A stretch of DNA of 64,000 nt, from NCBI RefSeq assembly GCF_017994015.1, contig NZ_JAGOLP010000019.1, forward strand, positions 1 to 64,000. Direction: 5' to 3'. Made by a program: the position numbers and the translations under genes. The stretch is from Ferrovibrio sp. GTDB lineage: Bacteria; Pseudomonadota; Alphaproteobacteria; Ferrovibrionales; Ferrovibrionaceae. Positions 24,439 to 27,703 of the stretch are shown piece by piece (position 1 is the first letter of the stretch; every line of letters begins with the position of its first letter). The notes beneath the pieces are model-generated. The model searched no databases. It saw only the letters and a list, made by a program, of their open reading frames with translations, and was not told where the DNA came from.

Positions 24439-25524
24439 ATGGACCTGCCCGCGCTGCCCGAAGCCAAGCTCGAAAAGGTGCTTGAGCGGTTCGACCGGCT
24501 GCAATCCGAGATGGCCTCGGGCAGCAGCGGCGAAGCTTTTGTCAAACTATCCAAGGAATATGCCGAGCTGGAGCCTTTGGTTGCCGGCATTCGGCATTGG
24601 CAGGCCAAACGCGCCGAACTGGCCGAGCTGGCGGCGCTGAAGGACGATGCCGGCAGCGATGCCGAGATGCGCAGCTTTGCCGAGGAGGAATGGAAGGCGG
24701 CGCAGGCGGCGATGCCGGAAATCGAGCGCGGCATGCTGATCCTGCTGCTGCCGAAGGACGAGGCCGACGAAAAGAACGCCATCCTGGAAGTGCGCGCCGG
24801 CACCGGCGGCGACGAGGCGGCTTTGTTTGCGGCCGAGTTATTTGCCATGTATCGCGGCTATGCGGCGCAGAAGGGCTGGCGCTTCGAGGTGATGAACCTG
24901 GCCGAAACCGAATTGGGCGGCCTGCGCGAAGGCGTTGCCACCATCACCGGGCGCAGCGTTTATGCCCGGCTGAAATTTGAAAGCGGCGTGCATCGGGTGC
25001 AGCGTGTGCCGGCCACCGAAGCTTCGGGCCGCATCCACACCTCGGCAGCCACCGTGGCGGTGCTGCCGGAAGCCGAGGATGTGGACATCCATATCAACGA
25101 AAGCGACCTGCGCATTGATGTGTATCGTTCGTCGGGTGCCGGCGGCCAGCATGTCAACACCACCGACAGTGCGGTGCGGATCACACATCTGCCCACCGGC
25201 ATCGTGGTGGCGCAGCAGACCGAGCGCAGTCAGCACAAAAACAAGGCGCAGGCGATGAAGCTGCTGCGCGCCAAGATGTATGAAGTGGAACGCGAGAAGC
25301 TGGCTTCGGCACGCGCCGCCGACCGCAAGGGCCAGGTTGGCTCGGGCGACCGTTCGGAGCGTATCCGCACCTATAACTTCCCGCAGGGCCGCGTCACCGA
25401 CCACCGCATCAACCTGACGCTCTACAAGATCGAACAGGTGATAACCGGCGAGGCGCTGGACGAAGTGATCGAGGCGCTGATCGCCGAGGATCAGGCCGGC
25501 CGCCTGGCGGCGCTGAACGATTGA
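24439..25524 (+). CDS. prfA: Peptide chain release factor 1
   Basis: A 361-residue class I release factor recognising UAA and UAG. The stop-codon-reading PAT tripeptide appears in [16 protein letters not shown], and the catalytic GGQ is at residues 235-237 ([20 protein letters not shown] in parts). The PAT motif distinguishes it from RF2. It follows hisS by 1 nt and its stop overlaps the TTG start of prmC, whose product methylates the GGQ glutamine. The coupling is therefore functional as well as positional. Confidence 0.97.
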
Positions 25525-26372
25525 GCAGCATCGGCGATAACCTGCGCGCTGCCACGGCGCAATTACGCGCCGCCGGCTGCGACAGCCCGCGCCTGGATGC
25601 CGTGCTGCTGCTGGCGGAATGCCTGGGCTGGAGCGCCGATCGCGTGCGCATCGATGGCGACCAGGCGATGCCGCCCGCTGCCGCTGCGCGTTTTGCAACC
25701 CTGCTGGCGGCACGCGCGGCACGCCAGCCGATGGCGCAGATACTGGGCCGGCGCGAATTCTGGAGCCTGGAATTCCGTGTCAGCCCCGCTGTGCTCGACC
25801 CGCGCCCGGATAGCGAAACCCTGGTGGCCGCCGTGCTGGAGCAATGTGCCGAGCGCGGCGCAAAGCTGCGGCTGCTGGATTTCGGCACCGGCTCGGGCTG
25901 TTTGCTGCTGAGCCTGCTGCATGAATTGCCGCAGGCTGAAGGGCTTGGCATCGACCGCTCCGAGGCCGCCCTCCTGGTGGCGCGGGACAATGCCGAACGC
26001 CTCGGCCTGGCCGAACGCGCCGGCTTCAAACACGGCGATTGGGGCCAGGGCCTGGCCGGGTCGTTTGATATCGTGCTGAGCAACCCGCCCTATATCGAAA
26101 GCGCCGCCATTGCCGGGCTGGCGCCGGAAGTGGCGGCGCATGAACCGCTCGGCGCGCTGGATGGCGGCCAGGATGGCCTGGATGCCTATCGCCGCCTGAT
26201 CCCGGATGCCTGGCGCCTGCTGGCAAATAATGGCCTGCTGGCGCTGGAGATCGGCCAGGGCCAACAGGCCGCCGTGGCCGGGCTGCTGGCCGCTGCCGGC
26301 TTTGCAGGCTTGGTGGAAAAGCCTGATCTGGGCGGCATCATCCGGGTGCTGCTGGCGCGCAAGCCCGCTTAA
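25521..26372 (+). CDS. prmC: Release factor glutamine methyltransferase PrmC (HemK)
   Basis: A 283-residue SAM-dependent N5-glutamine methyltransferase acting on the GGQ motif of release factors. SAM motif I is [16 protein letters not shown], and the substrate-Gln binding NPPY is at residues 188-191 (LSNPPYIES). The N-terminal helical domain is normal ([12 protein letters not shown]). The start is a TTG at 25521 overlapping the prfA TGA (TTGA), giving the usual family length; the unusual start may keep expression low. It ends the compact part of the operon, and a 374-bp gap follows. Confidence 0.95.
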
Positions 26373-26746
26373 AAAAACGCAAATTGGCTATTGGCAGGCC
26401 GTGCGGCACGGCTTATCCTGTGAATCAGGGGTGGTGCTGCCCCCCGGGAATGTCCTTCCGCTCGAACCCACCTTATGGTTGGAGCCGGCTTACAGGTGAA
26501 AACCGGTTGGCTGGGAAACGAAGGGCCAAAAATCTCAGCAGCGCCACCGCCTCCTCGATGCAGACTCCTCCGGCGTTAGACCCGCCCTGGTATCGAAGCC
26601 TCGGACAGCGTGCGCTTTAACGGCGCCGCCGACGCGGACGTATCGAAAGGCCGACCCCGTATCGTTGCGCCCCGGCAAACCGCCTGGGCCGGCGCCATGG
26701 CCGCCATAGCTGAAACGCCTCTTATGCGATTGCGATATATAGCGAG
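26373..26746. other. 374-bp intergenic region with candidate structured RNA
   Basis: The gap lies between prmC and the DUF4167 gene. It begins with an A-rich run just after the prmC stop, then a 15-bp dyad GCCGTGCGGCACGGC (26398-26412), then a block of nested complementary segments (26417-26548). The last 60 bp contain GCGATATATAGCGAG just before the next start, which is a plausible promoter/RBS region. Short open frames here look like chance. Confidence 0.5.
26417..26548 (+). ncRNA. Candidate structured RNA (rod-like, unassigned)
   Basis: GGTGGTGCTGC (26430-26440) pairs with GCAGCGCCACC (26538-26548) over 11 bp, with one G-U. Inside, CCTTC (26454-26458) can pair with GAAGG (26520-26524). 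Two further hairpins are CTCgAACC/GGTTgGAG (26461-26484) and AGCCGG paired with CCGGTTGGCT (26483-26512). A long imperfect rod with internal loops recalls 6S-like RNAs, but I cannot confirm any family. The strand is assumed from the flanking genes. It could also be a long 5' leader of the DUF4167 gene. Confidence 0.3.
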
Positions 26747-27265
26747 ATGACCCCTGTGAACAAAAATCGTCAACGCGGTGGCCGTCCCCAAGGCCGCCGG
26801 CCCCATAATAATAGTGGCGGTGGCGGCGGCGGTGGTGGCGGCGGCATGAATAGCGGCAACGCCCACCGCAATTTTGACAGCAACGGCCCCGATGTAAAAA
26901 TCCGCGGCACTGCCAGTCATATTTTCGAACGCTACTGCCAGCTTGCCCGCGATGCCAATTCGTCGGGCGACCGCGTCGCCGCCGAAAGCTTCCTGCAACA
27001 TGCCGAACATTATTACCGCATCATGCTGGCCCAGGGCATCGCCCCGGTGCAGCGCGCGGCCAATGGCGGCCAGCCCAACGGCAATGGCAACGGTAACGGT
27101 AACGGCCAGCCGCAGACCCAGCAGAACCAGCCGCAACCCGGCGCCCCCTTCTCCGAAGGCGAGCCGCAGCCCAGCCTGGAGCTGGAACTGGAACAGGCGC
27201 TGGAAACCACCCCGGCAGCCGAACCAGGCCGCGAAACCGAGCGCGACGAAGCCCCGGCAAACTGA
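26747..27265 (+). CDS. DUF4167 domain-containing protein
   Basis: A 172-residue basic-then-acidic protein. An Arg/Gln/Asn- and Gly-rich disordered N-terminus (NRQRGGRPQGRRP, then a ten-glycine run) precedes the conserved DUF4167 core at about residues 50-95, with KIRGTASHIFERYCQLARDA and FLQHAEHYYRIM. The rest is Asn/Gly/Gln/Glu-rich and probably disordered. The Arg-Gly-rich N-terminus and helical core suggest RNA or ribosome association, but no function is established that I know of. It normally follows prmC in alphaproteobacteria, as here, and is closed by a strong terminator. Confidence 0.9.
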   Translation: MTPVNKNRQRGGRPQGRRPHNNSGGGGGGGGGGMNSGNAHRNFDSNGPDVKIRGTASHIFERYCQLARDANSSGDRVAAESFLQHAEHYYRIMLAQGIAPVQRAANGGQPNGNGNGNGNGQPQTQQNQPQPGAPFSEGEPQPSLELELEQALETTPAAEPGRETERDEAPAN

Positions 27266-27320: not shown

Positions 27321-27351
27321 CATGGGCTGGGGGAAGCAGGGGAAAAAACGC

Positions 27352-27634
27352 GATGCCCGCTCCCCCGGAAAGTCGCCATGCCCACACAAGCGGGCATCCC
27401 ATTTTTTTGCAAAATATGTCTGAATTCCCGGGAAAATGGGATGCCCGGGTCAAGCCCGGGCATGACGAGTGCGGTGGAGGTGCTAACAGCCCCATCGGAT
27501 TAGACCGGACAGCACCGGCCCCGGTTCCTCCCCCTCTCGTCATGCGCGGACTTGATCCGCGCATCTCTCCTTGCCCGATAATTCATGGAAAAAGGAGAAA
27601 AACGAGATGCGCGGATCAAGTCCGCGCATGACGA
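27352..27634. repeat. Cluster of REP/BIME-like palindromic elements
   Basis: Three elements share the plan ATGC-core, 5-nt TCAAG/CTTGA loop, core-GCAT with 9-bp stems: 27441-27463 (ATGCCCGGG/CCCGGGCAT), 27542-27564 (ATGCGCGGA/TCCGCGCAT) and 27607-27629 (same stem, opposite orientation). The last two, with flanks 27538-27568 and 27604-27634, are exact reverse complements. A looser pair GATGCCCGC/GCGGGCATC spans 27352-27398. GGGCATCCCATTTT (27392-27405) is exactly complementary to 27433-27446. These resemble the intergenic palindromes common in alphaproteobacterial chromosomes. Confidence 0.8.
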
Positions 27635-27703
27635 CGGGGAGCAAGGCCACAGGCCATTGCGCGCTAGGTAATTCCTGCCGGGCGGCGCTGATCCGGCGCC
27701 AGG

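Follow-up and report, generated by a model that had tools for sequence, protein, structure and literature searches.

Why should a long noncoding stretch separate prmC from the next gene in an operon whose genes are otherwise packed together? In the window, that is, the whole stretch of 64,000 nucleotides of Ferrovibrio sp. DNA analyzed here, prfA is followed by prmC, which encodes the release-factor glutamine methyltransferase (25,521–26,372; Pfam PrmC_N and methyltransferase domains; TAA stop codon at 26,370–26,372), and then by a gene for a DUF4167 protein with an N terminus rich in Arg, Gly, and Asn (26,756–27,265; PF13763, 101.3 bits). All features described here lie on the forward strand. 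The first-pass annotation placed a structured noncoding region in this gap and offered a 6S-like RNA or a long regulatory leader as its explanation. Sequence comparisons favor the anatomy of a leader, which appears to have a promoter of its own, conserved structure, no terminator ahead of DUF4167, and the same arrangement throughout the class. We are confident that the gap comprises a locus-specific promoter and a leader that is probably at least 140 nt long wherever a promoter was called, with a long-range helix at or near its predicted 5′ end in five well-sampled clades. That the gap is a promoter and a long, folded, class-conserved 5′ leader of the DUF4167 mRNA put to use in mRNA stability or feedback is a fuller statement, to which we give about even chances.

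The longest reading frame of the DUF4167 gene opens at ATG 26,747. In sister species this ATG falls outside the reading frame, and the genus comparison shows GTG 26,756 to be kept along with its GCGAGATG run, so that translation probably starts at GTG 26,756 rather than at ATG 26,747. The gap would therefore measure about 383 bp, not the 374 bp annotated, and the leader about 330 nt. As judged from the position of the −10 hexamer, the transcript should begin near 26,426 and continue into DUF4167, with the predicted 5′ leader occupying 26,424–26,755. The contrast with a packed operon, on which the annotation had remarked, is general: in the 78 loci with prfA placed, the median distance is 7 nt between prfA and prmC versus 265 nt between prmC and DUF4167, and a distance of at least 100 nt occurs in 2 of 78 and in 78 of 78 loci, respectively.

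Of 385 alphaproteobacterial genomes sampled, 321 encode PF13763; in a control set of 14 genomes, Caulobacter alone has it. Within the family, 16 of 18 genomes carry DUF4167, ten of these in the genus. These 16 loci, together with 30 and 60 from the wider class, make up a set of 106, in 97 of which prmC lies directly upstream on the same strand, at distances of 144–957 nt (median 276); the nine loci without a prmC match were left out of the gap counts.

The promoter predicted in the window consists of a −35 hexamer TTGGCA (26,391–26,396), supported by the genus comparison and corresponding to TTGGAA in the class motif, and a −10 hexamer TATCCT (26,414–26,419), which reads TATCTT in sister species and TAGGTT-like in the class. 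All ten genus gaps contain TTGGCAG and a TATCTT-like −10. An A-tract resembling an UP element (26,371–26,377) lies 13 nt before the −35 hexamer here and 2–6 nt before it in most of the class. The 15-bp GC dyad (26,398–26,412) that had been read as part of an RNA rod is indeed present in the sequence, but it sits between the −35 and −10 hexamers as part of the 17-bp spacer and thus belongs to promoter DNA, outside the rod; similar dyads occur in some sister species only. Several genus members, including the window, L011, L014, and L016, have a GC palindrome as their spacer (for example, GGGGGGC-GT-GCCCCCC), and this palindrome is absent from G007 and G008. It is possibly a genus-level operator; as a class-wide operator it was rejected, with arms of at least 5 in 4 of 77 loci compared with 3.3 expected.

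A promoter motif learned on 95 gaps, from which L012 and L022 were omitted as near-duplicates, reads TTGGAA, 17 nt, TAGGTT, mostly with a C before TAGGTT, and scores above the 99th percentile of shuffles in 77 of these gaps. The −35 element starts at a median of 17 nt past the prmC stop codon, and in some loci inside the end of prmC; the distance from the −10 element to the start codon is 140–575 nt (median 230) in loci with a called promoter. A strict promoter pattern was found in 36 of 97 gaps, compared with 0.92 ± 1.1 in shuffles and none in prmC coding sequence. Within the 25 nt upstream of the promoter, 67 of 77 loci have a run of at least four A residues (17.9 ± 3.1 after shuffling; 2 in the coding control), mostly 2–6 nt before the −35 element, the usual site of a proximal UP element. 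Since the matrix was scored on the same gaps from which it was learned, a genome-wide pattern search is the better test of specificity. The composite pattern AAAA-N3-5-TTGGA-N17-CTAGNNT matched 36 distinct sites, distributed over 35 of the 240 class genomes searched. Thirty-one of these precede DUF4167, 29 as recognized by a DUF4167 domain 166–372 nt downstream (34 sites read) and two, in G059 and G185, by coordinates; the other five lie elsewhere, several of them within reading frames. As a sequence pattern, the composite promoter thus seems almost private to the DUF4167 gene genome-wide. Six chosen genomes had 11 matches to a shorter pattern: the sole match in G213 is the prmC–DUF4167 gap, and the three in G006 are the gap, a lysyl-tRNA synthetase-like gene, and a site before another reading frame. 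It is rare for a promoter to be tied to one gene throughout a class, to have such unusual −35 (TTGG) and −10 (CTAG) letters, and to drive an RNA that keeps its architecture but not its sequence.

Exceptions to the usual layout were also inspected. In L068 and L069, where prmC and DUF4167 are about 0.7–1 kb apart, the promoter lies 529 and 637 nt after prmC and, like the leader, stays with DUF4167; the additional 0.5–0.6 kb or so on the prmC side of the promoter appears to be coding. By hand scan, three of the nine loci without a prmC match have a full-score promoter (TTGGAA, 17 nt, CTAGNNT; L049, L056, and L087), and five others have weaker TTGG matches. In six Bosea/Chelatococcus-type loci, simple scanning gave no convincing promoter. 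With respect to sigma factors, the 17-nt TTG..TA...T layout would fit the housekeeping factor best, in comparison with EcfG and RpoH consensus sequences; RpoH promoters of R. sphaeroides likewise need TTG, according to PMC3441632. In a sister species, TTGGAA-N17-TAGGTT precedes the lysyl-tRNA synthetase-like gene, which has a class II synthetase domain (L135; G006:C1:2650670-2650698), a hint of a small class of promoters linked to translation.

The 11-bp helix of the first-pass annotation (26,430–26,440 with 26,538–26,548) is exact, forms part of the best fold, and is extended by AGG/CCU (26,427–26,429 with 26,550–26,552) across a bulged G26,549. The closing helix so defined, P1, is found in both the window fold and the genus alignment; its 5′ arm spans 26,427–26,440 (AGG and GGTGGTGCTGC) and its 3′ arm 26,538–26,552 (GCAGCGCCACC, the bulged G, and CCT). 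The best fold of 26,420–26,560 also contains the inner helix, with 7 bp where 5 bp had been proposed (26,452–26,458 with 26,520–26,526), and both of the hairpins that had been noted (26,460–26,485 and 26,486–26,513), which together make up the P1 interior (26,452–26,526). The minimum energy of −58.4 kcal/mol compares with −48.7 ± 3.9 kcal/mol for 200 dinucleotide shuffles (z = −2.47), 4 of which were as low, so that this single-sequence z is only moderate evidence for structure. A second stem-closed domain, P2 (26,549–26,651), pairs GCCTC-N-TCGA (26,549–26,558) with TCGA-AAGGC (26,643–26,651). It adjoins P1 and overlaps its outer CCT, and the consensus of the ten genus sequences, all included, contains it as GCCUC-N-UCGA with UCGA...GAGGC.

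The alignment of orthologous gaps, which the annotation had named as a check, revealed compensatory changes in the leaders of the genus, in Rhizobium-type leaders, and in Phyllobacterium/Brucella leaders. RNAalifold recovered P1 on the alignment of the ten genus genomes, in which P1 and a CCC/GGG step are paired in 97.0% of 135 cells, and the letters of P1 change while pairing is kept, as in GGUGGUGC/GCGCCACC, GGUGACGC/GCGUCACC, GAUGACGU/ACGUCAUC, and GAUGGCGC/GCGCCAUC. Changes on both sides affect 4 pairs and 9 cells of P1 with this step (shuffle means, 1.9 and 2.9), values reached by 19 and 0 of 500 shuffles, respectively; versions of P1 that were slid along the alignment gave 0–5 both-sided cells. 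Pairing is lost at a single pair in G002 and at a few of the outer ones. The 3′ arm, GGCAGCGYCAYCGCC, varies hardly at all in the genus and continues without gaps into P2. The P1 interior forms different structures in the clade of the window and in the other genus members.

Among the loci from named genomes, only seven groups of related loci were used. Six Bosea/Chelatococcus-type loci were dropped for their unconvincing promoter, and L143, L174, L182, L203, L162, and L198 for a poor promoter match or for lack of a group; alignment A5 omits L197 and L214. In Rhizobiaceae, the Rhizobium-type leaders have an 11-bp P1 that begins 6–7 nt past the −10 element and was found by RNAalifold unprompted. 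It is paired in 97.5% of cells, with two both-sided pairs (reached by 68 of 500 shuffles; covariation score, 3 of 500), and the full fold has five covarying pairs and eight cells (0 of 500). In five Phyllobacterium/Brucella sequences, P1 is paired in 94.3% of cells and has three covarying pairs (33 of 500 shuffles) and five covarying cells (6 of 500). For the first 170 nt of the leader, alignment-fold z scores, determined with L170, L201, L211, L214, and L219 omitted, were −6.2 in the genus of the window (8 sequences), −5.0 in Rhizobium (10), −5.4 in Phyllobacterium/Brucella (6), −2.6 in Caulobacteraceae (7), and −5.9 in Devosia (4), and in each of these five clades 0 of 100 shuffles reached the observed score. 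By contrast, 15 equal-length upstream coding controls from the same clades gave a mean z of −0.01 (range, −1.9 to +1.25). The consensus folds of the five clades all have a helix that opens 2–9 columns after the −10 hexamer, the start site itself being predicted, and spans 111–148 columns. Results for 16 groups of two or three sequences were mixed, with z below −2 in two and above 0 in three.

Single sequences gave a weaker signal. In a class-wide test, pairing of the first 20 nt with downstream sequence was not significant (mean z of −0.25 and −0.29, versus +0.03 to −0.25 in other test windows), and the excess of folding in leaders over prmC coding sequence was small but significant (mean z, −0.89 versus −0.39; p = 0.004; 95 loci, again omitting L012 and L022). 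Of 289 genomes searched with a covariance model of the genus leader, 2 matched. Both belong to the genus, and each has one match, located in the gap; extra hits were at chance level. A Rhizobium model assigned 57.8 bits to a Ciceribacter leader outside its training set. Because the genus model does not reach past the genus, the case for homology of the RNA between clades is one of position and architecture rather than sequence. Across the class, the comparisons point to conservation of the promoter, the leader, and, in clades sampled well enough for testing, the 5′-closing helix, whereas the RNA sequence varies.

How the leader might act is constrained in part by its other properties. A terminator-like site between the promoter and DUF4167 was found in 1 of 77 leaders, and upstream open reading frames are depleted (7, versus 13.8 ± 2.4 by chance), leaving an upstream open reading frame or attenuator unsupported. 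Masking of the ribosome-binding site is likewise unsupported: its probability of being unpaired is slightly higher than with shuffled leaders (0.482 versus 0.461; p = 0.013; 75 leaders). Long 5′ leaders as such are described as common in Alphaproteobacteria in PMC3616915 and PMC7566282.

Known RNA families do not account for the gap in the searches made. At gathering score, Rfam 15 gave no match in the window or in 20 named loci, the latter including Bradyrhizobium, which bears on BjrC80, an RNA located upstream of hypothetical proteins according to PMC9549626. A permissive search (E ≤ 5) of 26,200–26,900 gave hits at chance level, 6S not among them. Among 14 related loci searched at E ≤ 1, only 6S at L001 reached its gathering score, and the strongest subthreshold match, to CsrC, fell on the end of DUF4167 together with the hairpin that follows. 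ar45 (RF02347), which like the leader is an alphaproteobacterial intergenic RNA, was rejected: the genome of the window has no match, and of the 13 of 385 class genomes that match (12 above the cutoff), none has prmC or DUF4167 near the ar45 locus; according to PMC2780559, the S. meliloti member likewise lies at another locus. DUF4167 received single mentions in the literature searched, none in a title or abstract. Searches for prmC and small RNA, for hemK, clpB, and sRNA, for long leaders, and for TTGGAA/CTAGG returned nothing on this locus, and the main texts of PMC2245857 and PMC2873474 contain no hemK, prmC, prfA, or clpB. So far as we can tell within Rfam 15 and this literature, the leader represents an RNA family that is of a known kind but has not been described.

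The 6S-like reading, either 6S RNA (RF00013) itself or a second RNA mimicking an open promoter, had some appeal in the rod-like window fold with its central internal loop, paired ends, and promoter of its own. Covariance models find no 6S match at the gap, and the sole 6S match of the genome lies elsewhere, at a contig edge (L001, G000:C124:1-161; 54.3 bits, cutoff 46.4), directly upstream of the 5-formyltetrahydrofolate cyclo-ligase gene (PF01812). The gap was thus rejected as 6S RNA, and with the P1 interior variable and replaced in sister species, the chance that a 6S-like RNA resides here is close to nil. Selection on the promoter alone, with leader folds as by-products, would be in keeping with the promoter being the most conserved part, with the differences in RNA sequence between clades, and with the weakness of the single-sequence tests. 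It is made very unlikely by the compensatory changes seen in three clades and by alignment-fold scores that are strong in five, against null coding controls.

Two further alternatives grant the RNA a structure of its own. A discrete noncoding RNA could be cut from the DUF4167 mRNA or end before it, comprising the P1-closed domain (about 125 nt here) and acting alone or perhaps with DUF4167. Stable RNAs typically have their 5′ and 3′ ends paired, and such a molecule would be well served by the strong UP-element-like promoter and by a self-contained domain with the ribosome site left open; yet no terminator follows the domain other than in the single leader noted above, the leader always runs on to DUF4167, and both interior sequence and size vary greatly among clades, so that we consider this reading unlikely. 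A switch responding to a ligand or a protein, by masking the ribosome-binding site or terminating transcription, could be expected from a long structured leader before a single gene, and P1 and P2 of the genus share 26,550–26,552 and could alternate. The scarcity of terminators argues against it, as do a ribosome site unmasked in the predicted ground state, the lack of an Rfam riboswitch match, and an interior that varies between clades, unlike a binding pocket; we regard a switch as rather improbable.

For a structured leader of the DUF4167 mRNA, the most likely use would be to set the lifetime and output of this mRNA, a mechanism that we put forward tentatively, at somewhat less than even chances. 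With transcription starting where P1 begins to pair, the 5′ end of the mRNA would be buried, and P1 would close the leader as a self-contained domain and leave the ribosome-binding site open. Such a paired 5′ end may resist 5′-end-dependent decay. In E. coli, a 5′-terminal stem of the ompA leader protects the mRNA from decay of this type. Both are long leaders, and they would be alike in a helix placed at the very 5′ end, a predicted end in the case of DUF4167; they differ in that the DUF4167-leader helix is long-range (111–148 alignment columns, as above) and encloses more structure.

The conserved bulk of the leader exceeds the needs of a stabilizer, which suggests that a protein may also dock on the folded domain and exert feedback. 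The DUF4167 protein itself is the foremost candidate for this possible role, on account of its Arg/Gly-rich N terminus and strict core. RNA-binding proteins with autogenous leaders, such as ribosomal proteins and RNase E, resemble this case in a structured leader and a product that, by its sequence, looks RNA-binding; the DUF4167 leader differs in having no Rfam match, and binding of leader by protein is conjectural here. DUF4167 is predicted to fold as two helices in a hairpin (mean pLDDT, 65.9), and a comparison with the PDB gave no solved relative, its one match (E = 0.069) being at chance level. Because there is no solved relative and the helical-hairpin model is of low confidence, RNA binding by DUF4167 is only a guess. 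A bolder and improbable extension would be that DUF4167 and the P1-closed RNA form a ribonucleoprotein across Alphaproteobacteria, in which a strong, locus-private promoter supplies an abundant RNA, kept stable by its paired ends, with DUF4167 as its dedicated partner and feedback regulator. OLE RNA is a structured RNA that acts with a partner protein encoded nearby, and it is likewise found beside a conserved small protein gene over a broad clade; it is far longer and conserved in sequence, whereas the DUF4167 leader keeps only promoter and architecture between clades. An RNA that keeps its architecture without its sequence offers a handle on an unknown core protein, DUF4167, and bears on how alphaproteobacteria hold chosen mRNAs stable or under feedback.

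On the other side of the gene, 3′ of DUF4167, the window contains a cluster of inverted and direct repeats of 19–36 nt (27,343–27,639), which looks like dispersed palindromic repeat elements.
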